A DNA stretch of 64,000 nt from Comamonadaceae bacterium (GTDB lineage Bacteria; Pseudomonadota; Gammaproteobacteria; Burkholderiales; Burkholderiaceae_C), in contig CANJWZ010000020.1 of NCBI GenBank assembly GCA_947478725.1, positions 1 to 64,000 on the forward strand. The letters are read 5' to 3'. The position numbers and the translations under genes were made by a program. Positions 1,637 through 44,490 of this stretch are shown one piece after another; the first letter of the stretch is position 1; the number at the start of each line of letters is the position of its first letter. The notes beneath the pieces were generated by a model. It had not been told where the DNA came from. It ran no database searches and worked only from the letters and a program-made list of their open reading frames with translations.

Positions 1637-1830
1637 CGTCGCCCCCACGGTCGTTCGCTTCGCGTAACTCCCTGCCCCCCGAGGGGGCCGCTGCCCTTGC
1701 AGGGCGCACTGCCGCCAGAGGCGGCGCTCTCGAGGCTGTCCAACCCCACTCAAGTGGGCTTGGAGCCGCAGCCTCAAGCCTGCGGACTGGCAGAGCCAGA
1801 TCCGCGGCCCCTGTTTGATTTAAGAGATTA
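1637..1830. repeat. GC-rich dispersed repeat (family A) with an extended palindromic tail
   Basis: The interval between the hydroxyacid dehydrogenase and HMG-CoA lyase is filled by a GC-rich element. It has the shared core CCTGCCCCCCGAGGGGGC in reverse orientation, followed by further short inverted repeats. The same core recurs at least nine times in this window. The 61-codon ORF at 1633-1818 and the 5' extension of the next ORF are by-products of it. Confidence 0.85.
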
Positions 1831-1876
1831 CCGTCACTCACCGCGCATTGCCTGCATATTCCGTGAAAGTACCTTT

Positions 1877-2785
1877 ATGAACCTGCCTTTCAAAGTCAAA
1901 CTGGTGGACGTTGGCCCGCGCGATGGCCTGCAAAACGAGAAAGCACCAGTGCCTGCGGCAGTCAAAATTGAGCTGGTGCATCGCTTACAAGAAGCCGGCC
2001 TGAAGGAGCTGGAAGTGACCAGTTTTGTGTCGCCCAAATGGGTGCCGCAAATGGCCGATGCGCTGGACGTGATGGCCGGCATTGAGCGACGGGCAGATGT
2101 TCGTTATTCGGTGCTCACTCCCAACATGAAGGGCTTTGAAGCGGCGGTCACGGCCAAGCCCGATGAGATCGTGGTGTTTGCCTCAGCCAGCGAAGCCTTC
2201 AGCCAGCGCAATATCAATTGCTCGATTGCCGAGAGTATTGAACGCTTTGCACCGGTGGTAGCAGCGGCCAAAGCGGCTGGCATTCGGGTACGCGGCGCTA
2301 TTTCCTGTGCCGTGGGTTGTCCGTACGAGGGCGATATTGCGCCTGACCGGGTGGGGATGGTGGCCGGGCTGATGGCGGGCATTGGTGTCCAGCATATTGG
2401 TGTGGCCGACACGATTGGGGTGGGCACGCCACTGAAGGTGCAGCGCGCCATGGAGGCCGCGCTCAAGCACTACGGCATCAACGATATATCCGGCCACTTT
2501 CACGACACCTATGGTCAGGCACTGGGCAACACACTGGCCAGCCTGCAAGTGGGCGTGTGGCACTTCGATACGTCTGTGGCTGGCCTGGGCGGTTGCCCTT
2601 ATGCCAAAGGCGCGACCGGTAACGTCGCCACCGAGGACGTGGTCTACATGCTGCACGGTATGGGCATTGAAACCGGCATTGACCTGGACAAACTGGTTGA
2701 TGCGGGTCAGTACATCAGCGACTTTTTGGGCCGCAAGCCCAGCTCGCGTGCGGCTACTGCTTTGTTGAACAAGAGGGTTGGCTAG
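1877..2785 (+). CDS. mvaB: Hydroxymethylglutaryl-CoA lyase
   Basis: A 302-residue lyase that cleaves (S)-HMG-CoA to acetyl-CoA and acetoacetate, the last step of leucine catabolism. The ORF track starts at 1697, but those 60 extra codons are repeat sequence; the ATG at 1877 gives the family N-terminus (FKVKLVDVGPRDGLQNE). The metal/substrate site VGPRDGLQ, the FHDTYGQALGN block and the active-site cysteine loop GLGGCPYAKGATGN with the following NVATED are all present. It lies downstream of the carboxylase biotin subunit, consistent with a liu-type operon, although a repeat now separates them. Confidence 0.95.
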   Translation: MNLPFKVKLVDVGPRDGLQNEKAPVPAAVKIELVHRLQEAGLKELEVTSFVSPKWVPQMADALDVMAGIERRADVRYSVLTPNMKGFEAAVTAKPDEIVVFASASEAFSQRNINCSIAESIERFAPVVAAAKAAGIRVRGAISCAVGCPYEGDIAPDRVGMVAGLMAGIGVQHIGVADTIGVGTPLKVQRAMEAALKHYGINDISGHFHDTYGQALGNTLASLQVGVWHFDTSVAGLGGCPYAKGATGNVATEDVVYMLHGMGIETGIDLDKLVDAGQYISDFLGRKPSSRAATALLNKRVG

Positions 2786-2789
2786 GTGC

Positions 2790-2872
2790 GCAGCGACGGG
2801 CCGCCCCTAGCAAGCACAGCCCCCTCGGGGGGCAGAGAGTTACATGAAATGAATGAACGTGGGGGTCTTACT
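2790..2872 (+). repeat. GC-rich dispersed repeat (family A)
   Basis: A forward copy of the GC-rich element between mvaB and the YbaK-like gene. It has a GGGCCGCCCC start, a CCCCCTCGGGGGGCAG core and a GTGGGGG end. It reads in frame with the following gene, which is why the ORF track extends that gene upstream to 2786. Confidence 0.85.
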
Positions 2873-2890
2873 TTGTGTGGTTCGGAATTG

Positions 2891-3625
2891 ATGGCGCTGC
2901 CTGAAGGCGTTCAAAAAGTAGCCGCTTTGCTGCAAGCCAAAGCTCACCCTCATTTACCCGTCATGCTCGACGATGCGGCACGTACCGCACAGCAGGCGGC
3001 TGATGCGCTGGGCGTCAGTGTGGGTCAGATTGCCAAGAGCATTCTGTTTCGCCGCCGGTCAGACGATGCGGCCGTGCTGGTGGTCACATCGGGCGACCAG
3101 CGGGTTGATGAAAAAAAACTCGAGGCGCTGGTGTGCCCAGACGGCAAGCGCCTGGGACGGGCCGATGCGGCGTTTGTCAAAAGCAAAACCGGGTTTTCCA
3201 TCGGTGGTGTGTCGCCCCTGGCGCATGCCACGCCTTGTGTTTTGCTGATCGATGCATCTTTGTTTCGGTTCGATGAGATCTGGGCCGCTGCCGGGCACCC
3301 GAATGCGGTGTTTCAGTTGGCACCGGCAGACCTGGAGTGGCTGACGGGCGCGCCTGTGGTGGACGTTTCTGTTAACCCCGTGGAGGAGCAATCAGCCCAG
3401 TCAAGTGCTATTTCGTTGGTAGCATCTCGGGCTCTAAAAATAAGGGCTACAGCCGAGATGCTGTCGCCCTGTATATCGGTGTGCCGCATGCATGCCGTGA
3501 CCGGTTTGTGTGAAGGCTGCTTCAGAACCCGCGATGAAATTGCCGCCTGGGGCAACGCGGATGACGGTGCCAAAAGAGCCACCTGGACGCGCATTGAACA
3601 GCGCATGACTGACCTGCAGGCTTGA
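2891..3625 (+). CDS. YbaK/aminoacyl-tRNA deacylase domain fused to a DUF1289 domain
   Basis: A 244-residue protein with two parts. Residues 1-160 match the YbaK/ProX-like trans-editing fold that hydrolyses mischarged aminoacyl-tRNA, with the conserved lysine in QIAKSILFR and the GFSIGGVSPLAH loop. Residues about 193-235 match DUF1289, with the cysteine pattern SPCISVCRM...GLCEGCFRT. The linker (residues about 168-190) is encoded by a dispersed repeat, so the fusion may have arisen through it. The ATG at 2891 (MALPEG) was chosen because the ORF upstream of it is GC-rich repeat. A DsbA-fold gene follows after 3 bp. Editing activity is inferred from the family; the role of DUF1289 is unknown. 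Confidence 0.8.
   Translation: MALPEGVQKVAALLQAKAHPHLPVMLDDAARTAQQAADALGVSVGQIAKSILFRRRSDDAAVLVVTSGDQRVDEKKLEALVCPDGKRLGRADAAFVKSKTGFSIGGVSPLAHATPCVLLIDASLFRFDEIWAAAGHPNAVFQLAPADLEWLTGAPVVDVSVNPVEEQSAQSSAISLVASRALKIRATAEMLSPCISVCRMHAVTGLCEGCFRTRDEIAAWGNADDGAKRATWTRIEQRMTDLQA
3396..3455 (+). repeat. Dispersed repeat (family B) forming a protein linker
   Basis: This copy begins GCTATTTCGTTGGTAGCATC and ends near AAGGGCTAC, matching the family B pattern (GCTAT, about 8 bases, AGTAGC, about 20 bases, a GGGC end). It lies between the YbaK-like and DUF1289 coding domains and stays in frame. Confidence 0.65.
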
Positions 3626-3628
3626 CGC

Positions 3629-4270
3629 ATGAAGCACATCACCTTTCACCTCGACTTTATTTCGCCCTACGCTTATCTGGCGTTTGCGCAGTTACCCGAG
3701 GCATTAAAGGGCATCAGCTACGGCGTTGATTACCGGCCGGTGTTGTTTGCCGGCATGCTCAAACACCACGGTCAGCTGGGGCCGGCCGAGATCGCTCCCA
3801 AGCGCGACTGGACCTATCGGCAAGTCATGTGGCTGGCAGACAAGCTGGGGCTGGAGATGCGCATGCCTGCAAGCCACCCGTTCAATCCACTGCCGCTGCT
3901 CCGCTTGGCCCTGGCCTGTGGCCAGCGGGCGGGCGACAGCAACCGCTATGTGTGTGAGCAGATTTTCAAACACGTGTGGACCAGCGGCGCAGACATGAAC
4001 GATGCTGCGGCTTTTGAAACACTGCTGGCCCAGCTCAAGCCCCGCCATGACCTGGAAGGCAGCGACGTTAAAAACGGTTTGAAAGCCAATACCGACGCCG
4101 CCATCAGCAAGGGTGTTTTTGGGGTGCCCGCTTTTGAAGTCGATGGCCAGGTCTTTTGGGGCCTGGATGCGCTGCCCATGCTGCGTGACTATCTGCTCGA
4201 TGCGCCCTGGTTTGAAGCCGGTGGCTGGGAGCGCTCGCGTCAGGTCGCGGCAGGGGTTGTTCGACAGTGA
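3629..4270 (+). CDS. 2-hydroxychromene-2-carboxylate isomerase-like DsbA-fold protein
   Basis: A 213-residue member of the DsbA/kappa-GST superfamily. The N-terminal HLDFISPYAYLA has the serine that binds the glutathione thiol in HCCA isomerases, and the cis-proline loop is GVFGVPAFEVDGQVFWG near residues 163-180. The family isomerises aromatic ring-cleavage products using glutathione in the cytoplasm, but many chromosomal members have no known aromatic pathway. No aromatic-degradation genes are nearby, so the substrate is uncertain. It follows the YbaK fusion gene by 3 bp and is probably in the same transcript. Confidence 0.8.
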   Translation: MKHITFHLDFISPYAYLAFAQLPEALKGISYGVDYRPVLFAGMLKHHGQLGPAEIAPKRDWTYRQVMWLADKLGLEMRMPASHPFNPLPLLRLALACGQRAGDSNRYVCEQIFKHVWTSGADMNDAAAFETLLAQLKPRHDLEGSDVKNGLKANTDAAISKGVFGVPAFEVDGQVFWGLDALPMLRDYLLDAPWFEAGGWERSRQVAAGVVRQ

Positions 4271-4403
4271 TCGAAAATTGACCCAGCGTTTTCCCTCAAA
4301 ATCCGCATCTTGAAAAGTTTTTGTCGGGTTTTCCCTTGAGTTGTAAGGCCTTGTTAGTTTCGCGTCAGAACGCGGTCAGCCACAACCAAAACAATGCACG
4401 AGT

Positions 4404-4430
4404 CTTCCATTTTGGAAGTCTTATTATTTT
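4404..4430 (+). terminator. Hairpin plus T-tract immediately before the MHS transporter
   Basis: A 6-bp perfect stem (CTTCCA/TGGAAG, loop TTT) is followed by TCTTATTATTTTTT, ending directly at the ribosome binding site of the next gene. It could terminate the upstream operon or act as a leader attenuator. The stem is short, so it is not a strong terminator. Confidence 0.45.
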
Positions 4431-4442
4431 TTGGAGACAGCT

Positions 4443-6119
4443 ATGGCAACATCAACCGTCGCTCCACGTCCCATGAGCGCTGAAGAGAAGAAAGTGATCT
4501 TCGCTTCCTCGCTGGGTACCGTGTTTGAGTGGTACGACTTTTATCTGTATGGCTCACTGGCCGCTGTGATCGCCAAACAGTTCTTTGGCGGACTGGACCC
4601 CACATCGGCCTACATTTTCGCGTTGTTGGCGTTCGCTGCAGGCTTTATTGTGCGTCCGTTCGGTGCGTTGGTTTTTGGCCGCCTGGGCGACATGATTGGC
4701 CGCAAGTACACCTTTTTGGTCACGATCGTGATCATGGGTTCGGCGACGTTTATCGTCGGCCTGCTGCCTAACTACGCCACCATCGGTATTGCTGCCCCGA
4801 TCATTCTGGTCGCACTGCGCATGCTGCAAGGCTTGGCATTGGGTGGTGAATATGGCGGCGCTGCCACTTATGTTGCCGAGCATTCCCCCATGGGCAAGCG
4901 TGGCGCGTACACCGCCTGGATTCAAACCACCGCCACGCTGGGTTTGTTCCTGTCGTTGATCGTGATTCTGGTCACCCGCGAATTGACCGGCCCGGCTTTT
5001 GAAGTCTGGGGCTGGCGCGTTCCCTTCCTGCTGTCCATCTTGCTGCTGGCCGTGTCGGTTTACATTCGTTTGAGCATGAACGAATCACCCGCTTTTGCCA
5101 AGATGAAGGCTGAAGGCAAAACCTCCAAAGCGCCGCTGTCCGAGTCCTTCGGCCAGTGGAAGAACCTGAAAATCGTGATTCTGGCGCTGATTGGTTTGAC
5201 CGCAGGTCAGGCCGTGGTCTGGTACACCGGTCAGTTTTATGCGCTGTTCTTCTTGCAGTCGATCGCCAAAGTGGACCCGAAAACCGCCAACTTGCTGATT
5301 GCCGCGTCGCTGGTGATCGGTACGCCGTTTTTCATCTTCTTCGGCTCGCTGTCAGACAAAATTGGCCGCAAGCCCATCATCCTGGGTGGCTGCCTGATTG
5401 CTGCCTTGACCTACTTCACGGTCTTCCCCATGCTGCTGAATTACGCCAATCCGGCGCTGGTCGCTGCACAAAAGGCTGTACCTGTCACTGTGACTGCTGA
5501 TCAGGCCACCTGCTCCTTCCAGGGCAGCCCGATTGCGCGTCCGATCGACTTCACCAGCTCCTGCGACATTGCCAAGCGCACGTTGACAGAGAACTATATT
5601 CCCTACAAAAACGTGACTGGTGCAGCCGGTTCTATCGCTGTCATCAAGCTGGGTGACAAAGAGATCCCGTCCCTGAACGCCACCCTCAATGACAAGCGCG
5701 ATGCGTTCTCGCCTGACAGCGGCAAAGCGATTGCAGACTTCAAAAAAGCCGTGGTTGAAACCGCGAAAACGGCAGGCCTGACAGCCAAAGCCGACGACAA
5801 GACCATGAACAAAGGCATGGTGTTGGCGGTGCTGGTGTTCCTGGTGATTCTGGTCACCATGGTGTATGGCCCGATTGCTGCCATGCTGGTTGAGATGTTC
5901 CCAACCCGTATCCGCTACACCTCGATGAGCTTGCCTTATCACATTGGTAACGGCTGGTTTGGCGGTTTGCTGCCCACCACGGCATTCGCCATGGTGGCTG
6001 CGACAGGCGACATTTTCTATGGCTTGTGGTACCCGGTGATCGTTGCAGCCGCCACCTTCGTCATTGGCATGCTGTTGATCAAAGAGACCAAAGACGTCGA
6101 TATTTTTGCCAACGACTAA
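4443..6119 (+). CDS. MHS-family MFS transporter (metabolite:H+ symporter)
   Basis: A 558-residue inner-membrane transporter of the MHS branch of the major facilitator superfamily (ProP/KgtP/ShiA relatives). Visible marks are the first-helix GTVFEWYDFYLYG, the loop 2-3 signature GRLGDMIGRK and its repeat in the second half, SLSDKIGRKP. Most MHS members are about 430-450 residues; this one carries an insert of about 100 polar residues (roughly 345-450) between helices in the second half, with two cysteines. The ATG at 4443 is preceded by GGAGA. The gene stands alone between a hairpin and a strong terminator. The substrate is probably an organic acid or osmolyte but cannot be read from sequence. 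Confidence 0.88.
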   Translation: MATSTVAPRPMSAEEKKVIFASSLGTVFEWYDFYLYGSLAAVIAKQFFGGLDPTSAYIFALLAFAAGFIVRPFGALVFGRLGDMIGRKYTFLVTIVIMGSATFIVGLLPNYATIGIAAPIILVALRMLQGLALGGEYGGAATYVAEHSPMGKRGAYTAWIQTTATLGLFLSLIVILVTRELTGPAFEVWGWRVPFLLSILLLAVSVYIRLSMNESPAFAKMKAEGKTSKAPLSESFGQWKNLKIVILALIGLTAGQAVVWYTGQFYALFFLQSIAKVDPKTANLLIAASLVIGTPFFIFFGSLSDKIGRKPIILGGCLIAALTYFTVFPMLLNYANPALVAAQKAVPVTVTADQATCSFQGSPIARPIDFTSSCDIAKRTLTENYIPYKNVTGAAGSIAVIKLGDKEIPSLNATLNDKRDAFSPDSGKAIADFKKAVVETAKTAGLTAKADDKTMNKGMVLAVLVFLVILVTMVYGPIAAMLVEMFPTRIRYTSMSLPYHIGNGWFGGLLPTTAFAMVAATGDIFYGLWYPVIVAAATFVIGMLLIKETKDVDIFAND

Positions 6120-6140
6120 GGTTTAGTTTTTGTCACCCAA

Positions 6141-6172
6141 GGCCCTCGCCGCTTGTCGAGGGCCTTTTTTTT
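6141..6172 (+). terminator. Rho-independent terminator after the MHS transporter
   Basis: A 9-bp GC-rich stem (GGCCCTCG.../...CGAGGGCC) is followed by eight T residues, 21 bp after the transporter stop codon. Confidence 0.92.
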
Positions 6173-6186
6173 GTAAAGAGCGCATC

Positions 6187-6321
6187 ATGTGGAAATTGCT
6201 TGTTGGATTCATCGTTTTTGCCGGTTTGGCTTTGTATCTGCTGATGAAGGGCGGAGACATTGACATGAGCGGAGAAAAGCACGGCTTATTGAATGCCCAT
6301 GTTATTTTTGTGAAGGTTTGA
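6187..6321 (+). CDS. Small single-pass membrane protein (unknown)
   Basis: A 44-codon ORF starting MWKLLVGFIVFAGLALYLLMKGGD. It has one hydrophobic segment (residues 3-20) followed by a short polar tail. The upstream AAAGAG is a plausible ribosome binding site, and the ATG follows the terminator by 14 bp. Small proteins beginning MWKLxVGFIVFA are, from memory, common in Comamonadaceae and usually have a longer Ala/Pro-rich tail. This tail looks shortened and may be frameshifted. Function unknown. Confidence 0.55.
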   Translation: MWKLLVGFIVFAGLALYLLMKGGDIDMSGEKHGLLNAHVIFVKV

Positions 6322-6415
6322 TGCTAAGGTTACGTTTCGTCACTTGAACTTGTAACCGCCTCCTTGAACCTCGTCTTCATCTGGCTGCAGCGCAACTGAC
6401 TTACTGGAGGCGAAG

Positions 6416-6925
6416 ATGATTTACACCAAAACCGAGCTGGGTAGAACGGTGCTGCAGGACAGGTCACTGGGCCTGAGTCCCCGGCAGCGCTCAGCGTTCA
6501 TCCTGTTTGATGGCGCGCGCGGTGTGGAAGAGGTGCTCAAGCTCACCAAGGCCCTGGGGGTGACAGCTGATGACATCAGCTGGCTGGTTGAATTGGCTTT
6601 GTTGGCGCCAAAGGATGCAGTCGCTGACCGCCAACAGGCTGATGCGGCACAGTCTCCCTTGGCAGCGCCTGGCCTTGGTGCTGCCTTGCCGGGCTTGACA
6701 GCGTCTGCAGGCGAGTTCCCCGCTCTCGACGACCAGGCGCACTATGCCCGCGCCTATCCCATCGCGGTCCGTTTGACGAGCAGTCTGGGTTTGCGCGGTT
6801 TCAGGCTCAACCTCGCGGTTGAATCAGCCGCTGATCTGGAAGCGCTCAAAGACCTGGCCCCCAAAATCAAGGAAGCCGTGGGCATGGACAAGTTCAAGGA
6901 ACTCGAGGACGCGCTTTACCGTTAG
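6416..6925 (+). CDS. Hypothetical protein, 169 residues
   Basis: The product was not recognised. The ATG has a good Shine-Dalgarno (ACTGGAGG) 7 bp upstream. The protein has an N-terminal globular part (residues 1-65, ending in a hydrophobic LVELALLAP run), an Ala/Leu/Pro-rich middle (70-105) and a mixed alpha-helical C-terminus. No signal peptide or clear membrane segment is visible. Codon use and GC3 look like the neighbours. It is a stand-alone gene between a small membrane protein and uvrA. Confidence 0.65.
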   Translation: MIYTKTELGRTVLQDRSLGLSPRQRSAFILFDGARGVEEVLKLTKALGVTADDISWLVELALLAPKDAVADRQQADAAQSPLAAPGLGAALPGLTASAGEFPALDDQAHYARAYPIAVRLTSSLGLRGFRLNLAVESAADLEALKDLAPKIKEAVGMDKFKELEDALYR

Positions 6926-7024: not shown

Positions 7025-10000
7025 ATGCCCCAGGGAACCATCCGCATTCGCGGCGCGCGCCAGCACAATCTCAAAAATATTGACCTGGACATCCGTACCA
7101 ATGAAATGACGGTCGTCACCGGGCCAAGCGGTTCGGGCAAGTCGTCGCTGGTGTTTGACACCCTTTTTGCCGAAGGCCAGCGCCGCTACGTCGAAACCTT
7201 TTCGGCCTATGCCCGGCAGTTTTTGGACCGCATGGACAAACCTGCCGTTGACAAGGTCGAAGGCGTGCCGCCGGCGATTGCGATTGACCAGACCAATCCG
7301 GTGCGAAGCTCGCGCTCGACGGTCGGCACCATGACAGAGCTGAATGACCATCTGAAGCTGCTTTATGCAAGGTCGGCCCAGTTGTTTGACAAGCAAACCG
7401 CGCAAGCCGTGCGACATGACACGCCCGAGTCGATTTATGCGGAGTTGATGGCGCGCACGGCTGAGTTGGATGCACAATTTTCCAACGGGCGCGCTCCCGA
7501 AGGAAAATTAGCCCCCTCGGGGGGCAGCGAAGTACGCGAAGCGACGAGAGTGGGGGCTCGTGTGGTGATGACTTTTCCGGTAGAACTGCCCGGCAATACC
7601 AGCGCAGAGCAACTGGAGCAATGGTTATCAGCCAGCGGTTTTACCCGCGTGCATGCCGAACGTGAAGTGGCCACACCTGCTGGGCCGCACAAACTGCTGG
7701 ATGTGGTGGCCGACAGGTTTCGGATTCAGACGATTGAAAAAGCGCGTGCGGTTGAGGCGATTGAAGTGGCCATCAAGCGGGGTGGTGGGCGCTTGAATGT
7801 GTATGTTCAATCAGATGGGCAAGATGAAAAGATGTGGCGCTTTTCCACTGGCTTGCATTGCCCCGACAGCGACACGCGTTACACCGACCCAACGCCCTCA
7901 CTGTTCTCGTTCAACTCCGCGATGGGCGCGTGCGACAAGTGCAAGGGCTTTGGCCGCGTGATTGGCGTGGACTACGGCCTGGTGATCCCTAACGACAAGC
8001 TGACGCTGCGCGCGGGTGCGGTCAAGGTCATGCAAACCCCGGCCTGGCAAGAGGCGCAAGACGATTTGATGCGCCACGCTGAAAGCGCCGGTATTCCGCG
8101 TGACACGCCTTGGTACAAGCTCACGCCCGAGCATCAGGCCTGGGTGATCAACGGCTCGCCCAACTGGAATGGCAAGTGGAGCCAGCACTGGTTTGGCATC
8201 AAACGCTTTTTTGAATACCTGGAGTCCAAGTCCTACAAGATGCATATCCGCGTCTTGCTGTCCAAGTACCGCAGCTACACGCCGTGCGAGACTTGCGGCA
8301 GCGCACGCTTAAAGCTCGAATCGCTGCTGTGGCGGCTGGGTACCCAAGAAGCAGCCGATGCCGTGCTGCCACCGGCGGAGCGTTTCATGCCGGTTGGCGT
8401 GACGTGGACACGCGCGCAACTGGAGGCAATGCCAGGCTTGTGTTTGCACGACCTGATGCGCTTGCCGATTGATAAATTACAAAAGTTCTCGGCCAGTTTG
8501 TCGCACGCTGCCCTGGGCGATGACGCAGAGCAAAAAGCCCTCAAGTCCCTTTTTGAAGAAATCCAGACCCGGCTGAAATACCTGTGCGACGTCGGCATTG
8601 GCTACCTCACACTGGACCGGCAAAGCCGCACCCTGTCGGGCGGTGAGGTGCAGCGCATCAACCTGACGACGGCGCTCGGCACCTCCTTGGTCAACACCCT
8701 GTTTGTATTGGACGAGCCTTCGATTGGCCTGCACCCGCGCGACATGAACCGCATCACCCAGGCCATGCACCGCTTGCGCGACGCGGGCAACACGCTGGTG
8801 GTGGTCGAGCATGACCCGGCGGTGATGCTGGCCGCCGACCGCATGATCGACATGGGCCCTGGCCCGGGTGAGAAGGGTGGGCAGATTGTGTTTGACGGCA
8901 CGCCGGAAGACTTAAAGCATGCCGACACGCTGACGGGTGCTTACCTGGGAGCCCGCAAGCAGGTCGGCATGGGTTTCAAGCGCCCGGTGACCGACAGCAC
9001 GCCGCGTTTGATTCTGGAAGGCGCACGTGACCACAACCTGAAAAATCTCACAGTCGATTTTCCTTTGCAGCGCCTGGTCTGCGTGACGGGCGTCAGTGGC
9101 TCGGGCAAGTCCACGCTGATGCAGGACATTCTGGCCCCCGCGCTGCTGCGCCAGTTTGGCAAGGCCACCGAAACGCCCGGCCTGCATGACCGCCTGATGG
9201 GCGCTGACCATCTGACGGATGTGGTGTTTGTTGACCAGTCGCCCATCGGGAAAACCGCACGCTCCAACCCGGCCAGCTATGTAGGCGCATGGGACGCGGT
9301 GCGCGAGCTGTTTGCCCAGGCACCGTTGGCACGGCAGCGCAGCTACACCTCGTCCAAGTTCAGCTTCAACAACGGCGATGGACGTTGCCCAACCTGTGGC
9401 GGTTCAGGTTTTGAGCATGTCGAAATGCAGTTTTTGAGTGATGTTTACTTGCGCTGCCCGGACTGCGATGGCAAGCGCTACCGTCCCGAGATTCTGGAAG
9501 TCACCATCGAGCGCAAAGCCATCGGTCAAACCGTTTCAAAGATTTTGAATGTGGCTGATGTGCTTGACCTGACGGTCAGCGAAGCCGTACAACTGTTTGC
9601 CCAAGACCGCGAGGTGGTGCGCGCCCTGCAACCCATCGTGGATGTGGGGCTGGAATACGTCAAGCTCGGCCAGCCTGTGCCCACGCTGTCCGGCGGTGAA
9701 GCCCAGCGCCTGAAGCTGGCGGGGTTTTTAGCCGATGCGAGCAAAACCCGCAGCGCCAGCAAGCAGGCTCTGGCCCTGCGCCACCCGAGCAAGGGCACGC
9801 TGTTTTTATTCGACGAGCCCACCACCGGCCTGCACTTTGACGACATCGCCAAGCTCATGCGTGCGCTGCGCAAGCTGCTTGAAGCGGGCCATTCGCTCAT
9901 CATCATTGAGCACAATCTGGACGTGATTCGTTCTGCCGACTGGATCATTGATCTGGGCCCCGAGGGCGGCGAAGCAGGCGGCCTGCTGGTGGCAGAAGGT

Positions 10001-12973
10001 ACGCCCGAGCAGGTGATGGAGCACCGCACATCACACACCGCATTGGCGCTGCGCGAGTATGCAGCGGTGATGAACAAAGTGCACGCGGTTGAAGAGCCGC
10101 GCGCCAAAGCCTGGAAGACGCGGCCGACGTTTTCAAACGACATTCAAATCGTCAACGCCAAAGAAAACAACCTCAAGAGCCTGTCGGTCAACATTCCGCG
10201 TGGCAAGTTCAATGTGGTCACGGGTGTGTCCGGTTCGGGCAAGTCGACGCTGGCGTTTGATATTTTGTTCAATGAAGGCCAGCGCCGCTATCTTGAATCA
10301 CTCAACGCCTATGCGCGCAGCATTGTGCAGCCGGCCGGCCGGCCCGAGGTGGATGCGGTGTACGGCATACCGCCGACGGTGGCGATTGAGCAGCGCCTGT
10401 CGCGCGGCGGTCGCAAGTCCACGGTGGGCACCACCACCGAGGTATGGCACTTTTTGCGACTGCTGTACGTCAAGCTGGGGATTCAGCATTGCACCAAAGA
10501 CGATGCCGCCGTGATGCCGCAAAGCCCCGAGAGCATTGCCGCACAACTGATGAAAAACTACCGCGGCAAACATATCGGCTTGCTCGCGCCGCTGGTAATA
10601 GCACGCAAAGGTGTTTACACCGAGCTGGCCGACTGGGCGCGGCCACGTGGTTACACCCATTTGCGGGTCGATGGCGAGTTTTTGCCGACCACAGGTTTTC
10701 CGCGCATTGACCGCTTCAAAGAGCACACGGTGGAGCTGCCGATTGCCAGCCTGCACATTGACCCGAAGAACGAAGCGGCCTTGCGCTTGGCGCTGACAGT
10801 GGCACTGCAACACGGCAAAGGCCAGGTGCATGTGCTGGCCCCGCTGGACGGCTTGCAGGGCGCGATGCTGGCGGGCACGTCAACCCAGGCGATTGGCAAG
10901 CTCGAAGCGTTCTCGACCAAGCGCGCCTGTCCGGTGTGCAGCACCTCGTATCCCGAGCTGGACCCGCGCCTGTTTAGCTACAACAGCAAGCACGGCTGGT
11001 GCCCTGATTGCGTGGGCACAGGCGTCAAGCTGACCAAAGAACAGCGCAAAGTGTTTGACGACTCGGTGCAAGATGCCGACAACAAGGGCCGCGAGCAAAG
11101 CTTTGCCGAGCCTGACGTTGAAGATGTGGCCAACACGGCCTGCCCTGGTTGCGCAGGGACGCGCCTGAACCGGCAAGCTCGGGCCGTCAAATTTGCGGGT
11201 GTGGGCATTGCCGACATCGCATGCTTGTCGGTTACCGACGTGCGGGCCTGGGTTGAAAAACTGGCCTTGGTTGGCCGCGAAAGCGGCATTGCGCGCGACC
11301 TGATTCCCGAGATCAAATCACGCCTTGAATTCCTGGAGGATGTGGGCTTGGGCTACCTCACGCTGGACCGTGGCGCGCCCACGCTGTCAGGCGGCGAGGC
11401 ACAGCGCATCCGGCTGGCGGCGCAACTGGGCAGCAATTTGCAAGGTGTTTGCTATGTGCTCGATGAGCCGACGATTGGCCTGCACCCGCGTGACAACGCC
11501 ATCTTGCTCAGCGCGCTGGGCAAGTTGAGCGAACGCGGCAACACGCTGGTGGTGGTCGAGCATGACGAAGACACCATTCGCCGCGCCGACAACATCATCG
11601 ACATCGGGCCCGGTGCTGGCAAGCGCGGTGGGCGTCTGGTGGCGCAGGGCAGTGCGGCACAACTGTCTGCGGTGCCAGACTCACTGACGGGTCGTTATCT
11701 TGCGAACCCGCTGATTCACCCCCTGCATGCGCGGCGCGAAACAGTCACTGAATTAGCCGACGTCCAACCGGCGAACGCCAGCTCAGCGCAACCGCTCAAA
11801 CCCGTCAGCAAACAAAAAGCCGCCAAACTCAAAGCAGCCGCACTGATCGCCAACGCTGCATCGGCCAGCACGCTGCACAACGCCGCCCCGGCCGCTGCCA
11901 GCAAACACACCTCGTGGCTGACGGTGACCAAAGCCGATTTGCACAACCTCAAAGACGTGACGATTGACGTGCCGCTTTTCAGGCTGGTCGCCGTCACAGG
12001 CGTCTCAGGTTCAGGCAAATCGACATTGGCCCGCGATGTGCTGCTGACCAACGTGCACGCCGCTGTCATGCAGCGCAGCACCAAGGCAGGCCGTGACTCA
12101 GACGATGCAGGCCACCATCCGACATGGGCCGGTTGTGAAAGCATCGCAGGCTACCGCGTGGTCGACCGCGTGCTTGAAGTGGACCAAACCCCGATCGGCA
12201 AAACGCCGCGGTCTTGCCCGGCTACCTACATCGGTTTTTGGGACACGATTCGCAAACTGTTTGCCGACACGCTGGAGGCGCGCGCCCGCGGTTACCAGGC
12301 TGGGCGCTTTAGCTTTAACACCGGCGAGGGCCGCTGCCCGACCTGCGAAGGAGCGGGCGTGCGGACCATTGGCATGAGCTTTTTGCCCGACGTGAAAGTG
12401 CTGTGCGAAACCTGCCACGGCGCCCGCTTTAACCCCGAGACGCTGGCGGTGACCTGGCGCGGCAAAAGCATTGGCGATGTGCTGAAGATGGAAGTCGACG
12501 AAGCGGTGGAATTTTTCAAATCCATGCCCAGCATCGGCCACCCGCTGCAATTGCTCAAAGACGTTGGGCTGGGTTACCTCACGCTTGGCCAGCCCTCGCC
12601 CACGCTGTCGGGCGGCGAGGCGCAGCGCATCAAGCTGGTGACTGAATTGAGCAAGGTGCGTGACGACATCACAAGGCGTGGTCAAAAAGCGCCGCACACG
12701 CTGTATGTGCTGGACGAGCCCACCGTCGGCCTGCACATGGCTGACGTTGAAAAGCTCATCCATGTGCTGCACCGCCTGGTCAACGGCGGCCACAGCGTGG
12801 TGGTGATCGAGCACGACCTGGACGTGATTGCCGAGGCCGACTGGGTGATTGACCTCGGGCCAGACGGCGGCAACGCCGGTGGCAGCGTGGTCGCCGCTGC
12901 ACCGCCTGAAACCGTCGTCAAGCTGGGCACCCACACCGGAAACGCCCTGCGCGGCGTTCTGGAACGGCTTTGA
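7025..12973 (+). CDS. uvrA: Double-length UvrA-type excinuclease ATPase (four ABC modules)
   Basis: A 1982-residue protein built from two UvrA units in tandem. UvrA is the damage-recognition ATPase of nucleotide excision repair and is normally about 950 residues. Four Walker A loops (GxSGSGKS) are visible near residues 33, 688, 1066 and 1659. Four ABC signatures (LSGGE) lie near 535, 886, 1452 and 1859, each followed by a Walker B DEP. Zinc-finger cysteine pairs are seen in both halves (CDKC, CPTC...CPDC, CPVC...CPDC, CPTC...CETC). Residues about 155-179 are encoded by a GC-rich dispersed repeat. Long UvrA paralogs of this kind are, from memory, known in Burkholderiales, usually beside a normal UvrA elsewhere; the function of the fusion is not established. 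It is a single gene with no nearby partner. Confidence 0.93.
7487..7560 (+). repeat. GC-rich dispersed repeat (family A) in frame inside uvrA
   Basis: The uvrA coding sequence contains the element core GCCCCCTCGGGGGGCAGCGA and the usual AGTGGGGGC end. It is translated as an extra [17 protein letters not shown]-like segment, the same reading frame and orientation as in ttcA and between ruvA and ruvB. Confidence 0.85.
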
Positions 12974-14963: not shown

Positions 14964-15060
14964 GGGTTCTTGAGGAGCGTTGCAACCCACGGCATGTGGA
15001 TTAGGCTCAAGATTTAACTTTGCAACCACGCTCACCCGCAATGCTTGTTCGCCGGGTGAG
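14964..15060 (+). ncRNA. SAH (S-adenosylhomocysteine) riboswitch with expression platform
   Basis: The leader contains the conserved SAH riboswitch segments in order: GAGGAGCGTTGCAACC, then AGGCTC, then TGCAACCACGCTCACC. In this class SAH binding turns on genes that recycle SAH, and the next gene is ahcY. CTCACCCG (15031-15038), whose CACGCTC part closes the aptamer, can also pair with CGGGTGAG (15053-15060). These alternatives form a plausible switch. No long T-tract follows, so control may be at translation or anti-termination level. Confidence 0.88.
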
Positions 15061-30375: not shown

Positions 30376-30948
30376 ATGATTGGACGAATTCAAGGCTTTC
30401 TAGCCGAAAAGAACCCACCCGAAATTTTGGTGGACTGCAACGGCGTGGGCTACGAGCTGTTGGTGCCCATGAGCACGTTTTACAACCTGCCCGTGCTGGG
30501 TGAAAAAGTCAGCCTGCTGACCCACTTTGTGGTCCGTGAAGACGCTCAAATCCTGTACGGCTTTGCCACATCGACAGAGCGCGCAGCTTTCAGGCAACTG
30601 GTCAAAATATCCGGCGTCGGCCCGCGCACCGCCCTCAGCGTGCTCAGCGGCATGAGCGTGGAAGAACTCGCCCAGGCCGTCACCCTGCAAGAGGCTGGCC
30701 GCATCATCAAGGTGCCCGGTATCGGCAAAAAAACCGCCGAACGTTTGCTGCTCGAGCTCAAAGGCAAGCTCGGTGCAGACATCGGCGTGAACGTCAGCAT
30801 CAGCAATGACAGCCAGTCAGATATCTTGCAGGCGCTGGTGGCGCTGGGCTACAGCGACCGGGATGCGGCGCTGGCGCTCAAAGCTTTGCCTCAAGATATT
30901 GGGGTGTCTGATGGCATCAAGCTGGCATTGAAGGCACTGGCCAAATGA
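30376..30948 (+). CDS. ruvA: Holliday junction branch migration protein RuvA
   Basis: A 190-residue junction-binding subunit. The N-terminal OB fold starts MIGRIQG. Two helix-hairpin-helix motifs follow ([11 protein letters not shown] near residue 77; [17 protein letters not shown] near 113), and a C-terminal RuvB-contacting domain covers about 140-190. It is divergent from phoH. Its stop codon overlaps, through ATGA, an ORF made of tandem repeats that leads into ruvB. Confidence 0.97.
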
Positions 30949-31208
30949 GCGCCGCGCCGGGCCGCCCCAAGCAAGCTCGCACCCCCTTGGGGGGCAGCGT
31001 CGTACACACAGTGACAAGCGTGGGGGCCACTAGAAGCGCCGCGCCGGGCCGCCCCAAGCAAGCTCGCACCCCCTTGGGGGGCAGCGTCGTACACACAGTG
31101 ACAAGCGTGGGGGCCACTAGAAGCGCCGCACCTAGCCGCCCCAAGCAAGCTCGCACACCCTTAGGGGGCAGCGCCGTTCACGCAGTGACAAGCGTGGGGG
31201 CCCATCGT
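30948..31208 (+). repeat. Three tandem 87-bp copies of the GC-rich family A repeat
   Basis: Units start at 30948, 31035 and 31122 with AGCGCCGC(G/A)CC and have a period of exactly 87 bp. Units 1 and 2 look identical over the stretches compared and unit 3 has several differences. Because 87 is a multiple of 3, the array is an open frame (30945-31214, 89 codons). That ORF overlaps the ruvA stop and the ruvB start by ATGA on each side. The encoded peptide is probably not a functional protein but may keep ribosomes running from ruvA to ruvB. Confidence 0.92.
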
Positions 31209-34258: not shown

Positions 34259-34341
34259 GAAATTTTTCGACGGGCCGCCCCGAGAAAAATGAGCCGCCCT
34301 CGGGGGGCAGCGTTGACACGAAGTGAAAAGCGTGGGGGTCA
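34259..34341 (+). repeat. GC-rich dispersed repeat (family A)
   Basis: TTCGACGGGCCGCCCCGAG, the core GCCCTCGGGGGGCAGCG and an AAGCGTGGGGGTC end identify this copy. It lies between two minus-strand genes. Confidence 0.88.
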
Positions 34342-34989: not shown

Positions 34990-36060
34990 TCAGAACGACT
35001 GTATGTTGATGACCGATCGGCCCGCAAGTTCTGTTGTCGTCGGCCCCTTGAAGTCGTCAGCATCAAACGCCTTGTCGCCCTCTGCATCGGCAACACCCGT
35101 GGTTTTGATGCCTTTGAAGTCATGGCGCTTGCCGTCCATCAAATGCGAGGGCACGATGTTTTGCAGGGCGCTGAACATGTTCTCAATTCGGCCAGGGAAT
35201 TTTTTGTCCCATTCGCGCAGCATGTTGCCGACCTGCTTGCGTTGCAGGTTCTCCTGGCTGCCGCACAGCGTGCAGGGAATGATGGGAAAGTTTTGCACAT
35301 CGGCCCAGCGGCTCAGGTCTTTTTCCGGCACATAGGCCATCGGCCGAATGACGATGTTTTTGCCATCGTCACTGACCAGCTTGGGCGGCATGCCTTTGAG
35401 CTTGGCGGCAAAAAACATGTTCAAAAAAAATGTTTGCAGCATGTCATCACGGTGATGGCCGAGCGCGATTTTGGTGGCGCCCAACTCGCCGGCGACCCGG
35501 TACAAAATGCCGCGCCGCAGGCGTGAGCAAAGTGAACACAGCGTTTTCCCCTCGGGTATCACCCGCTTGACGATGCTGTACGTGTCCTGGTTTTCAATGT
35601 GAAAGGGCACCCCCAGCTTGCTCAAATAGTCGGGCAGGATGTGCTCTGGAAAGCCGGGTTGCTTTTGGTCCAGATTGACGGCGATCAGGCTGAAGTTGAT
35701 CGGCGCGCGCTTTTGCAATTTCATCAAGATGTCCAGCATGGCGTAGCTGTCCTTGCCGCCAGACACGCAGACCATCACCTTGTCGCCTTCTTCAATCATG
35801 TTGAAGTCAACAATCGCACGGCCGACTTCCCGGCACAGGCGTTTTTCCAGTTTGTGTTCTTCGCGTTCAAGTTTGATGGCCCCCACGCTCCCCACTGCGT
35901 GTGGTTCGCTGCCCCCCGAGGGGGCGCTGCGCCTGCGGCCCGGCAAAGCCGGTTCCGCGGCCCCTGCTGGTAAAGATGAAGCCACCAAGTGTGTTGCTTT
36001 GCGTTCTGCGCTGGTTGTTTTTGTAGTGTCGGTCGCCACACTCATTTTTTCAACTTGCAT
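34990..36060 (-). CDS. ttcA: tRNA 2-thiocytidine biosynthesis protein TtcA
   Basis: A 356-residue ATP-dependent thiolase for cytidine-32 of tRNA. The PP-loop [10 protein letters not shown] lies near residue 98. The Fe-S cysteines are in [10 protein letters not shown] near 175 and PCTLCGSQ near 265. The ATG at 36060, with GGTGA upstream, was chosen over the track start, which overlaps folB. Residues about 32-61 are encoded by a reverse-orientation GC-rich repeat and interrupt the family N-terminus before the conserved [11 protein letters not shown] helix. It follows folB by 5 bp. Confidence 0.94.
35878..35965 (-). repeat. GC-rich dispersed repeat (family A) in frame inside ttcA
   Basis: On the minus strand this has the GGGGGGCAGCG core preceded by CGCCCCCTC and a GTGGGGGCC end. 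It encodes a [17 protein letters not shown] segment, the same frame and orientation relative to the gene as in uvrA and the ruvAB array. Confidence 0.88.
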
Positions 36061-36437: not shown

Positions 36438-36438
36438 A

Positions 36439-38388: not shown

Positions 38389-38389
38389 G

Positions 38390-38476
38390 CCCCCACGTTC
38401 ACTCACGTCGTTTAATTTTCTGCCCCCCGAGGGGGCCGTTTTTCCGTTGGGGCGGCCCGGCGGGAAAACATTTTTT
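38390..38476 (-). repeat. GC-rich dispersed repeat (family A)
   Basis: In reverse orientation it reads CCCCCACG..., then TGCCCCCCGAGGGGGCC, then GGGCGGCCCGGCG. It separates the methyltransferase and DUF2905 genes and creates the long track ORF starting at 38321. Confidence 0.88.
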
Positions 38477-38491
38477 GCAAAGCTTTCGCGC

Positions 38492-39967: not shown

Positions 39968-40004
39968 GGGGGAAGTTTAGCGGTCTGGCCCGTTGCGGTT
40001 TGCC

Positions 40005-40688
40005 TCAAGGCTGCAAGCGGTAGGGCTCTTCAAAATCCCGAAAGTCGTTTTCAAGCAGCGCATCATCAATCCACGCCTTCACACCGGCTGTGGCGCACAG
40101 CCTGTGGATGTACGCGGTGATGCGGGCAGGCACCGGCAGGGCGTAGGTCTTCAAGCGCATGGCCACGGGCGCGTAGTAGGCATCAGCAATGCTGAACTCG
40201 CCAAACAGCATCGGGCCGCTGTGCTGGGTTAACAGCTCGTCCCACATCGCCACCACGCGCGCCAGGTCTGCACGCACAGCAGGCTTGTCGCGCCAGATCA
40301 GCTGGCCTATGTCTGGCAGGCTGGCTTCGATGTTCATCGGGCAGGCAGAGCGCAGTGCCGCAAAGCCGCTGTGCATGTCAGCGCAGACCGATCTGGCCCG
40401 GGCGCGCGCTTTTGAGTCTTGCGGCCAGAGGTTTTTTTCATGAAATTGCTCGGCCAGATATTCGGCTATCGCCAGTGTGTCCCAGACCACCAAACCGTCA
40501 TCCACCAGCACAGGGACTTTGCCGACGGGCGACACCGAATCGACCGTTTTGCGAAATTCCGAGCCGGCCTGAAACGCGTCAAACCTGACCATGACCTCTT
40601 CAAACGGGATGCCGCACTGTTTGAGCAAGACCCAGGGCCGCATCGACCAGGATGAATAGTTTTTGTTGCCTATGTAGAGCTTGAGCAT
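40005..40688 (-). CDS. Glutathione S-transferase family protein
   Basis: A 227-residue GST. The thioredoxin-like N-terminal domain starts MLKLYIGNKNYSSWSMRPWV, with the Ser typical of YfcF/zeta-like active sites. The cis-proline is in VGKVPVLVDDG near residue 53, and an all-helical C-terminal domain contains SIADAYYAPVAMRL near 170. The ATG at 40688 has AAGGAAGT upstream, so the track start at 40757 was rejected. Substrate unknown. Confidence 0.9.
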   Translation of the reverse strand: MLKLYIGNKNYSSWSMRPWVLLKQCGIPFEEVMVRFDAFQAGSEFRKTVDSVSPVGKVPVLVDDGLVVWDTLAIAEYLAEQFHEKNLWPQDSKARARARSVCADMHSGFAALRSACPMNIEASLPDIGQLIWRDKPAVRADLARVVAMWDELLTQHSGPMLFGEFSIADAYYAPVAMRLKTYALPVPARITAYIHRLCATAGVKAWIDDALLENDFRDFEEPYRLQP

Positions 40689-40781
40689 GGTGACTTCCTT
40701 ATGTACTTGTGTGCGGGTACGCCATGCTAGCGCGGCATCAACTATTGATTGATGCAAAAACTCAGGCGAATTGATGCCGAA

Positions 40782-41726
40782 TTAAAACCGTCCGGCCGTC
40801 TTGCGCTTGGCTGTCAAGCCGCTGCGCAGGCCTTGCGCGCCCAAGTAAAACGGCACCACCGCACTCAGGGCAGATGGTGTGATGCCCAAGGCTTGCAGGC
40901 CAGGCAGGGTGCCGCCGGAGATGTTGTCAACCTTCATCGCGTCCAGATTGTCACGGCTCATGATGGGCTCCCCGGGGGCGAGCTCCATCAGGCCGGCCTG
41001 GATGCGTGCCAGCGCGTCGGGCAGTCCGATGACAGGCTTTTCGTGGCCGCTGTACTGGCCCGCCAGTTGCACCAGCTGCTTGAGCGTGAAAACTTCCGGG
41101 CCGCAGGCTTCGTAGGTTTGGCCGATGGTTGATTTGTCTTCAAGGCACTTGACCAGTGCCGTTGCCACGTCTTCAACCCACACCGGTTGAAATCTGGCGG
41201 TGCTGCCCGCCAGCGGGATGAACGGAAACAGCTTTTGCAGCGATGCAAAGGTGTTTAAAAACTTGTCTTCAGCGCCAAAAATCACGCTGGGCCGCAGCAC
41301 GCTGATGTCCAGGCCAGAGCTCTTCAGCACCGCTTCGCCGCGCGCTTTGCTGCGCTGGTACATGGACGGGGCCTTCAGATCTGCACCCAGCGAGCTGACA
41401 TGGACGATGCGCCGCTGCTCGGCGGCAGTGCAGGCTTTGACAAGTGCCGCGGGCAATTGCACATGGGCTTTGTCAAAAGCAGCTTCGCTGCCATGCAGGA
41501 TGGCCACCAGATTGACCACGGCATCATGCTCGGCCAGCAGCGGCGTGAGGGTGGCCGCGTCATGGGCCGAGCCTTCCAGCACGTCGACCATCGGCAGCAT
41601 CTGCACATGCCTGGCGTTTGAACGCCTGCGGGTCAACACGGTGGTGCGGTAATCGCCTTCGGCCAGCTTTTCACACAGGTGGCGGCCGACAAAACCAGTA
41701 CCGCCAAGAATGAGGATTTTTTTCAT
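40782..41726 (-). CDS. NDUFA9-like NAD(P)-binding epimerase/dehydratase family protein
   Basis: A 314-residue atypical SDR. The cofactor loop is ILGGTGFVGRHLCEKL at residue 6. The YQRSKARGE motif lies near 125, in the position of YxxxK. The domain order and the FQPVWVEDVATAL block near 185 match the complex I NDUFA9-like group. The stand-alone function in bacteria is not defined. A family B repeat lies upstream. Confidence 0.85.
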   Translation of the reverse strand: MKKILILGGTGFVGRHLCEKLAEGDYRTTVLTRRRSNARHVQMLPMVDVLEGSAHDAATLTPLLAEHDAVVNLVAILHGSEAAFDKAHVQLPAALVKACTAAEQRRIVHVSSLGADLKAPSMYQRSKARGEAVLKSSGLDISVLRPSVIFGAEDKFLNTFASLQKLFPFIPLAGSTARFQPVWVEDVATALVKCLEDKSTIGQTYEACGPEVFTLKQLVQLAGQYSGHEKPVIGLPDALARIQAGLMELAPGEPIMSRDNLDAMKVDNISGGTLPGLQALGITPSALSAVVPFYLGAQGLRSGLTAKRKTAGRF

Positions 41727-41784
41727 GGTGCTAATTTAGCGGTTTCGACTGAGTTTTGCTCAAAAAAGGCCATTTTCACGTGCA

Positions 41785-41842
41785 TTATGGCTGCAGCCCA
41801 ATATTTGCTTGGTCGAGTAGCTACTTATTCGATAGCGTTCAT
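41785..41842 (-). repeat. Dispersed repeat (family B)
   Basis: On the minus strand it reads GCTATCGAATAAGTAGCTAC followed by AAGCAAATATTGGGCTGCAG. It lies in the gap between slt and the NDUFA9-like gene. Confidence 0.8.
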
Positions 41843-41845
41843 CGG

Positions 41846-43855
41846 TCAGGGTAGCGTCTTATCGGTCTCGGGTTGGCTGGCATCGCGCGGCCCGACAGTG
41901 CCCAGCCTTGCTTTCAGCGATTGCGGCTGGCCCGTCAAGATGGCGGCGTAGTTGGTGGTGTTGGAAAGAACTTTTTTGACATAGTCACGGGTTTCCAGAA
42001 AAGGCACGCTTTCAGCCCAGATGGCGGCCTCGACCGTCGGGCTGCCAGACTGTCCGCGCCATGTTCTTGGTCGACCCGGCCCGGCGTTGTAGGCGGCAGC
42101 GGCCATGGGCATGGAGCCGCCCACGTCGTCCAGCACCAGTTTCAAATACCCTGTGCCGATGGCGATGTTGGTGTCACGGTCTGTGATCATGTTGGCTGTA
42201 AAGCCTGTCATGCCAATGCGCCGTGCTGTCTCGCGGGCGGTGGCGGGCATGACCTGCATCAGGCCGGATGCGCCCACGCCGGATCTAGCATCCATGATGA
42301 AGCGGCTTTCCTGCCGGATCAGCCCGTACACATAAGCCGGGTCCAGGTTGATGCTTTGCGCGCGTTTCACAACGGCCTCCTTGAAAGGCATCGGGAAGCG
42401 CTGCTCCAGGTCAATCAAGGCCTTGGTGCGCTCGCTGGTGTTGATGCAGCGGTCCCAGATTTGTTTGTCGCAGGCAAACTGCGCGGCAGCCAGCAGCTCG
42501 CGGTCGCTCATGCCGCCCGGTTTGGCCAGGTTGGTGCTGTAGTTCCATTCCCGCACGCCTTCTGGCCGCAAGCCAATCGCGATGGCGTAGGCGGCGCGGT
42601 TCAGTCCGGCGTTCAGCCGTGCATTTTCTTTTTCTTCGGGGCTGACGGGTGCTGGCTTGGATGGGGCGACGATTTTTTGGCCGAGTTCCTCCAGTGCCAG
42701 TTGCTCGTAGAAGCCGCGCACCGATGCGATCGACTGGTACAGAGCCACCGCCTCGGGGTTGCCGGCCTGCGTTGTTGCCACCAGGGCACGAGCCCTCCAG
42801 TACACCCAGACGGGTTCGGCTTTGGCGGCTTCGCTCATGGCTTTGGTGGCGTTCAGCACGTCGCGCCATCGGGGTTGCCCGCCAGCCCGCAGGGCTGCGC
42901 GCACCTTCCAGCCCAGCATGTCGTCGGTCAGGTCGGTGTCTTGGCTGACCTTGTTGTAATGGCCCAGAGCCTCGGCTGCGGGTACGGTGCCCAGCCGTGT
43001 GGCAGTTTGCTTGCCAATCAGGCCCCAGACCCAGTTGCGTTCTTCGCTGGTGAGCTGGTTGCCCCACTTGGCGTCCATCATGGCAGCAGCGCTTTCTGCC
43101 CCCGATGTGTCTGCGCTGGCCATTTTGACAAGCGCCAGGGTGATCAGTTCTTTGCGCGTGTTGCGAAGCGCAATGTTTTTTTCTGTCAAAAACCGGGCCG
43201 GGCTGTTGATGAGTTGGACCACCATGCCCACTGATTCTGGCGAGACGATGGCCACCGCATCGCGCCCGGCACCCGGCCGATTGGACTCCAGTGCCAGCCG
43301 TGCTTTTTGCCACACGTCCAGTCCGTTCATGTTTTTGGCGCCGACCAGCCGTTCGGCAGCGGCCCGGCAGCCGTCATCAGATTCGCGCTGGGCGTGCCAG
43401 TTTTTGCGCACCTCGTCCGACAGTCGCGCGTCGGCTGCCGGGTTTTTCAAGTGCTCAACCAGCAGTGCGTAGCAACGTATTTCCTTGTCGTCACCCATTC
43501 GGTAGTTGGGGTATTCGGCGTCAAAGGCGGGCCAGTCGCGCCTTTGCCCCAGCAGCAGCAGCCAGTCGGCCCGCAAGCGGTCTTCCTGGTAGGTACCGGG
43601 GTAGCGGGCAAAAAAGTCTTGGACGTCGCGCGTGCTGGCGTCGTCCAGCCGCGCTTTGAGCTCCCAGTAAGCGGCATAGGGTTCGAGTGCATGCCCCCTG
43701 GCTTGTGGCAACAGTGCCGCCAGTTTTTTGCGATCACCCCGCTTGAACGCCTGATTCATCTCGACAATCAGGCTGTCGCCCGCTGTGCTTTGGGCGAAGG
43801 CAACAGGCCCCCAAAAAGTGGCCATAACGAGGGTGCATAGAAATTTGGATAGCAT
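41846..43855 (-). CDS. Soluble lytic murein transglycosylase (Slt type)
   Basis: A 669-residue periplasmic enzyme that cleaves peptidoglycan glycan strands. It has a signal peptide (residues 1-22, ending PVAFAQ), a long helical superhelix (about 30-480) and a C-terminal SLT domain. The catalytic Glu is in LIRQESRF near residue 515, followed by GASGLMQVMP near 530 and AAAYNAGPGR near 590. The ATG at 43855 follows a TTG counted by the track. It is divergent from the 5-FCL gene with only 9 bp between the start codons. Confidence 0.94.
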   Translation of the reverse strand: MLSKFLCTLVMATFWGPVAFAQSTAGDSLIVEMNQAFKRGDRKKLAALLPQARGHALEPYAAYWELKARLDDASTRDVQDFFARYPGTYQEDRLRADWLLLLGQRRDWPAFDAEYPNYRMGDDKEIRCYALLVEHLKNPAADARLSDEVRKNWHAQRESDDGCRAAAERLVGAKNMNGLDVWQKARLALESNRPGAGRDAVAIVSPESVGMVVQLINSPARFLTEKNIALRNTRKELITLALVKMASADTSGAESAAAMMDAKWGNQLTSEERNWVWGLIGKQTATRLGTVPAAEALGHYNKVSQDTDLTDDMLGWKVRAALRAGGQPRWRDVLNATKAMSEAAKAEPVWVYWRARALVATTQAGNPEAVALYQSIASVRGFYEQLALEELGQKIVAPSKPAPVSPEEKENARLNAGLNRAAYAIAIGLRPEGVREWNYSTNLAKPGGMSDRELLAAAQFACDKQIWDRCINTSERTKALIDLEQRFPMPFKEAVVKRAQSINLDPAYVYGLIRQESRFIMDARSGVGASGLMQVMPATARETARRIGMTGFTANMITDRDTNIAIGTGYLKLVLDDVGGSMPMAAAAYNAGPGRPRTWRGQSGSPTVEAAIWAESVPFLETRDYVKKVLSNTTNYAAILTGQPQSLKARLGTVGPRDASQPETDKTLP

Positions 43856-43864
43856 CAAGGGATT

Positions 43865-44449
43865 ATGGACAAATTAACCGAACGACAAAGTAAGCGCAAG
43901 GCCCTGATTGAAGAACGGCTCAATCTGCCGGACCGCCTGCAGCGAGCCGACTTGCTGCAGCGCGTGATGCGCATCTGGCTGTTTGGCCGCACCGACCAGG
44001 TGATTGGCGCGTATTGGCCGATCAAAGGCGAGTTTGATCCGCTGCCTGCGCTGCACCGCTGGAAAGAAGACGGCGAGCTGCTCGATGAACCGCAGCTGCG
44101 CCGCATTGGCCTGCCGGTGGTCGACAAAGTCCATAAAACCCTGACCTTTCACGCCTGGTACCCGGGCTGCCCGATGGAAGAAGACGCTTACGGCATTCCC
44201 AAACCCAAAGACACCGAAGTGATCGTGCCCACCCTGCTGTTTGTGCCCTGCGTCGGCTATGGGCCGGGCGGCTTCAGGCTCGGCTATGGCGGCGGCTTTT
44301 ATGACCGCACACTGGCAACGCTTCTGCCCAAGCCGTTCACCGTGGGGCTGGGCTACACCAACGGCTGGCTGCCGGATATGGAGTCTGAGCCGCATGATGT
44401 GCCGCTGGATGCGCTGCTCAATGACAACGGCGTGGTCTGGCCGGTTTAG
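43865..44449 (+). CDS. 5-formyltetrahydrofolate cyclo-ligase
   Basis: A 194-residue ATP-dependent enzyme that converts 5-formyl-THF to methenyl-THF. The N-terminal helix has RQSKRKALIEERL-type basic residues. The ATP loop is in GGFRLGYGGGFYDRTLA near residue 138, and VPTLLFVPCVGY lies near 121. Starts of this gene and of slt nearly touch, so both promoters must lie inside the opposite genes or in upstream overlap. Confidence 0.93.
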   Translation: MDKLTERQSKRKALIEERLNLPDRLQRADLLQRVMRIWLFGRTDQVIGAYWPIKGEFDPLPALHRWKEDGELLDEPQLRRIGLPVVDKVHKTLTFHAWYPGCPMEEDAYGIPKPKDTEVIVPTLLFVPCVGYGPGGFRLGYGGGFYDRTLATLLPKPFTVGLGYTNGWLPDMESEPHDVPLDALLNDNGVVWPV

Positions 44450-44450
44450 T

Positions 44451-44490
44451 AAGCCCCCACGCTTGCCCGCTACGTGTGGCCCCTGCTTGA
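44451..44490 (-). repeat. Partial GC-rich repeat (family A) remnant
   Basis: AGCCCCCACGCTTGCCCGCT followed by GTGGCCCC resembles one end of the family A element without the core. Confidence 0.5.

Follow-up and report, generated by a model that had tools for sequence, protein, structure and literature searches.

A GC-rich repeat recurs through a 64,000-nucleotide stretch of a Comamonadaceae genome (the window; its genome is called G000 below), and two of its copies lie within uvrA and ttcA, which raises the question of how such an element comes to stand inside protein-coding genes and which copies endure there.

Anatomy of the repeat and its copies in the window

The sequence-only reading of the window had counted at least nine loci sharing a core, and that number held: searching for the core CCCCCTCGGGGGGCAG with up to three mismatches returned 11 matches against 1.06 expected (at most four in 100 shuffles), of which nine are real copies and two, at 1709 and 9953, are not. 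The 3.99-Mb genome contains 43 exact cores and none of a reversed control pattern, and R1, a 48-nt covariance model of the element's 3' module, finds 86 places in it at E ≤0.01. An Rfam scan of the window placed no family over the repeat copies. The only match from that scan was a SAH riboswitch aptamer at 14966-15040 on the plus strand, at 52.9 bits, above the gathering score.

The type I element is about 84 nt long and forms two hairpins. In hairpin 1, variable but mutually complementary arms (TTTTCC/GGAAAA in the uvrA copy) flank GGGCCGCCCC, and these are followed by GCCCCCTCGGGGGGCAG, a small CxCGAAGxG-type hairpin and GTGGGGGC/T; hairpin 2, GCCCCC...GGGGGC, encloses the conserved 3' module. 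Type II elements carry a CCGCGGAaCtGGCTTTGCCaG-type hairpin in place of hairpin 1. The element folds stably, and the arms of hairpin 1 belong together, because exchanging them between copies costs about 2.35 kcal/mol on average (native mean −12.05 kcal/mol, swapped mean −9.70, best of 20 swaps −10.06). Mean GC content is 70.9% over 78 copies of the window genome. The best-defined net insertions, in uvrA and cysN, measure 84 bp or 28 codons, and the units of arrays are mostly spaced at 81, 84 or 87.

Two of the nine window copies are intragenic. The uvrA gene (7025-12973, plus strand, 1982 aa, identified by alignment of relatives) contains an 84-nt type I copy at 7475-7558 on the same strand, and ttcA (34990-36060, minus strand) contains a copy with a type II 5' module at 35878-35966, also on the minus strand, which would add a 30-residue peptide to the N-terminal tail, ahead of the PP-loop domain (PF01171, residues 109-272 of P0002). 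Both stand in the sense orientation and in the same APSGGS frame, as had been claimed from the sequence. The same claim had been made for the array between ruvA and ruvB (30948-31208, plus strand), and there it failed: the three head-to-tail 87-nt units are intergenic, beginning on the last base of the ruvA stop codon and ending short of the ruvB ATG, their APxGGS-type frame is out of register with both genes, and both gene frames meet stops inside the array. The remaining copies are all intergenic: a composite at 1641-1813 on the minus strand, in which additional hairpins lie upstream of the 48-nt 3' module (1641-1689), and type I copies at 2794-2866 (plus), 34268-34339 (plus) and 38389-38460 (minus).

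Elsewhere, five antisense spacer copies (L217, L179, L203, L192, and L197) start at or just past the stop codon of the neighboring gene, with 48-54 nt between the end of that ORF and the core, so the element's 3' terminus may overlap stop codons.

Occupied and empty sites in host genes

Comparison with relatives indicates that the segments are insertions, being absent from the UvrA and TtcA of most close relatives. UvrA of G000 has 28 extra codons (84 nt) at a site that is empty in G015, although for most of its length the G015 protein shows 99% identity; the segment is also missing from most other congeners and from all order-level homologues aligned. The same site holds a copy in G014 and G008, two tandem in-frame copies in G035 (L043), and one copy in a Xenophilus azovorans protein that NCBIfam names UvrA. 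The TtcA element is common to G000 and G014, a different copy is present in G006, and the other congeners are without one. At the uvrA and cysN sites, the only two examined, no obvious target-site duplication, such as would mark a MITE, was seen.

Across five same-genus genomes, 85 copies were placed inside genes by a home-made codon-usage caller run on 4-kb regions, which would miss frame-breaking insertions with decayed hosts because it requires an open frame. In G000, where the set is nearly complete, 41 of 78 copies, about half, are intragenic, a share below that of random insertion into a genome assumed to be ~88% coding (p 1e-14). In-gene copies are thus rarer than chance would place them, and those that survive look like what a filter has let through. 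The two types are distributed unequally: 58 type I copies lie in genes against 43 in spacers, whereas type II counts 18 in genes and 70 in spacers (odds ratio 5.2, p 3e-7). Among flank pairs in which both sides were coding-like but discontinuous, no gene split by the element was found, and where such pairs could be named, which was only in part, they were different whole genes (pyrB/pyrC, tolQ/tolR, and ptsH/ptsI).

The hosts are often conserved housekeeping genes, essential ones included. Those named by NCBIfam or Pfam comprise LeuS, HolA, RadA, CysN, RecG, RecQ, ThrC, MetX, Fmt, IcmF, AmgK, Mpl, FdhD, GcvP, acetoacetate-CoA ligase, an RND permease, PurL (by its FGAR-AT domains), an IlvD/Edd dehydratase, and others. 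In MetX, the element interrupts the match to solved structures, which ends immediately ahead of it, at residue 239, and picks up again beyond it; in CysN, 28 codons are inserted between K and F, and G000 CysN (L099) carries two separate in-frame copies. The leucyl-tRNA synthetase host (LeuS) seems to be the sole copy in G000, since other matches in that genome are only distantly similar (~36% over 130 aa). G000 and G015 share the LeuS element, its site is empty in G012, G025, and other near relatives, and G010 LeuS carries a related, degenerate-looking insert. Between G000 and G015, the LeuS element differs by seven nonsynonymous and one synonymous change over 33 codons, against seven nonsynonymous and 34 synonymous over the 249 codons of the upstream flank; the peptide thus appears to be kept open and in frame and otherwise to be free to change, which fits a passenger.

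Some hosts have been entered more than once. Three species carry an antisense copy at a single IcmF site, with arms that differ between them, one loop of AmgK holds copies of either orientation in different species (L092, L170, L227, and L388), and repeated insertions occur in RecQ and in a caprolactamase-like protein. The same protein loops have been used recurrently, in independent hits.

Reading frames of in-gene copies and what may enforce them

For frame use, we retained copies with a strong gene score and at least 30 host residues on each side, the others being excluded because predicted gene ends and starts are doubtful there, which gave 125 copies in 85 host-gene families. With frames numbered from the first C of the core, sense frame 2 occurs in 50 families, antisense frame 1 in 28, sense frame 1 in seven, antisense frame 2 in four, and sense frame 0 and antisense frame 0 in none. 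The added loop of ~28 residues is therefore read mainly in two of six frames, encoding APSGGS..SVGA in sense (50) and APTLxxSRxxLPPEGA in antisense (28). Openness of the frames, measured in 235 spacer copies, was 90% for sense 2, 91% for antisense 1, 88% for sense 1, 56% for antisense 2, 50% for sense 0, and 95% for antisense 0. Frame use departs strongly from these values (chi2 107.7, p 1.3e-21, 85 families), with some dependence remaining in the frame statistics as host-gene families were counted once per frame; the antisense frame that is open in 95% of spacer copies is never used (28:0, p 2e-9), and the sense ratio is 50:7 (p 5e-9). Named public genomes show the same pattern (17, 9, 2, 0, 0, and 0 loci per frame), and other genera show it in less sharp form (14, 4, 3, 3, 0, and 0 copies per frame). 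The two used frames are also the lowest in arginine content and in net charge per 100 residues (6.1 and 4.2, against 12.7 to 20.9 in the others).

This very strong genome-wide bias supports the suggestion, made from the window, that selection favors copies that do not disrupt the host. The accompanying expectation of a single sense orientation does not survive, because antisense copies make up about one-third of host genes; beyond what the window had suggested, such copies elsewhere in the genome are also read within genes, in one preferred frame. We propose, with a probability of roughly 0.8, that the repeat is a mobile, non-coding two-hairpin element, most likely the Betaproteobacterial Repeat Element (BRE), which is filtered by selection at the protein level and survives in genes as a translated passenger loop. 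The element would spread via some enzyme and land in spacers and genes, gene-breaking copies would be removed, and copies adding whole codons in a tolerable frame would persist as a loop of ~28 residues, presumably translated in the cell and neutral for the host protein.

The main competitor, which we consider unlikely, is that the bias arises from insertion chemistry, by an entry motif with a fixed codon phase and with peptide content irrelevant. Repeated insertion into the same protein loops would fit such a motif, as would a weak A/T preference just past the 3' end of the element, present in genes and spacers alike. That preference is weak, however, yet the frame ratios reach 28:0 and 50:7, the phases used are not the same in the two orientations, and the frames used are the pair whose peptides have the least net charge and arginine. 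Selection on the peptide is therefore the reading we prefer; the insertion machinery may also favor certain phases and so contribute to the bias.

A more ambitious version of the preferred reading holds that the repeat is itself shaped for life inside genes, a DNA parasite adapted to harmless translation, its length tending to a multiple of 3 and each strand keeping a low-charge open frame even in spacers. Of 20 in-gene tandem pairs, 19 are spaced at a multiple of 3, a figure partly forced since only copies in open frames are detected; the same holds for 27 of 35 pairs in spacers, where spacing is not so forced, though some of the spacer calls may be wrong; with the commonest spacing (84) set aside, 13 of 21 spacer pairs still qualify (p 0.007). 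We regard this adaptation as possible but doubtful.

Retention of the peptide for a function, for example as a shared protein tag that regulates or localizes its hosts, is very improbable. Several hosts act in DNA repair and recombination (UvrA, RecQ, RecG, and RadA), and a published survey saw the same tendency for intragenic REPs (PMC3733652). Against this, hosts overall are very diverse, two unrelated peptides are in use, one sense and one antisense, close relatives carry the element only patchily, and the changes in the LeuS element are mostly nonsynonymous. Least credible of all is that the element could be removed before or during translation, by mRNA processing such as splicing, by bypassing or by proteolysis, leaving proteins unaltered: its fold is stable and known bypassing systems involve hairpins, but a removed element would tolerate stops and frameshifts, whereas the frames stay open, in-gene spacings (with the built-in part noted above) are nearly all multiples of 3, and no split host was found among the flank pairs tested.

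Relation to described repeats, distribution, and consequences

The closest described element is BRE (Hot et al. 2011, PMC3110155), with a unit of 75-91 bp, an average GC of ~69%, head-to-tail tandem copies, and a location mostly in spacers with some copies wholly inside coding sequences; it occurs in Betaproteobacteria including Polaromonas, Rhodoferax, and Acidovorax, with published copies from Bordetella. Our repeat agrees in its 84-nt insertions, its mean GC, its tandem habit (in the ruvAB array and many others), its mostly spacer location with some copies in coding sequences, and its presence in the same three genera, and is very probably BRE, as matched on the published description of size, GC, tandem habit, and host range, not on sequence. 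The text of that paper on BRE is silent on reading frames, host proteins, structure, and the scale of in-gene occurrence, and our literature search found no frame analysis of BRE.

The sequence-only reading had likened the element to the palindromic elements of Rickettsia (RPEs), which stand in frame in unrelated conserved genes and are read as added peptides (PMC10969869, PMC3733652). The likeness stands for in-frame insertion into conserved genes, here in 85 host-gene families. RPEs, however, are ~150 bp long (PMC10969869) and have a CGTC tag at one end (PMC3733652), whereas our element is shorter (84 nt), ends in variable arms and GTGGGGGC/T with no CGTC tag, resides in Betaproteobacteria, another bacterial class, and is translated from both strands under a two-frame rule; it works like RPEs but is not one of them, and very probably already has a name in BRE (PMC3110155). 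The GTAG- and CGTC-tagged REPs have intragenic copies in uvrA, tRNA synthetase, helicase, and recB genes that add 20-30 residues (PMC3733652), and our element shares the uvrA and tRNA synthetase hosts but has neither a GTAG nor a CGTC end and no RAYT link that we could see. As far as we have found, earlier work does not describe how extensively this family occupies genes, that both of its strands are used, the restriction to two frames with the accompanying trend in charge, or the repeated use of the same loops.

Copies occur in 39 of 41 congeners, at 1 to at least 149 per genome, and in 109 of 141 sampled genera of Comamonadaceae, with named carriers in Rhodoferax, Polaromonas, Hydrogenophaga, Variovorax, Ramlibacter, Xenophilus, Acidovorax, and Comamonas; the rest of the order gave only scattered weak matches. 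R1 scored no more than 150 candidates in any genome, and fewer in wide searches, which makes counts close to that ceiling lower bounds. Copy number varies widely within the genus, since G022 and G064 have no copy at threshold and other congeners reach at least ~149. One match outside Betaproteobacteria, loosely named bins aside, lies in a record titled as a Desulfovibrionaceae MAG (L421), possibly a mis-binned contig.

No mobilizing enzyme was found for the element, with RAYT checked across congeners. A RAYT transposase was rejected as its presence does not track copy number: nearly every congener has a Y1_Tnp gene, including the copy-free G022 and G064, and in G000 the detected copy nearest to the Y1_Tnp gene on its contig is ~21 kb off. 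Carriage by phages was likewise set aside, with no phage matches and three matched plasmid records.

In-gene palindromes have so far been known mainly from Rickettsia and scattered REP families, and here one family stands in genes across most sampled genera of a large, free-living and partly culturable group. Annotation is affected, because in-gene segments distort domain matches and start-codon calls. With dozens of cases in the window genome, empty sites in near relatives, both orientations, and independent hits on the same loops, the family constitutes a natural insertion-scanning experiment on which added peptides proteins tolerate, and the movement and survival of such elements in genes become directly testable.
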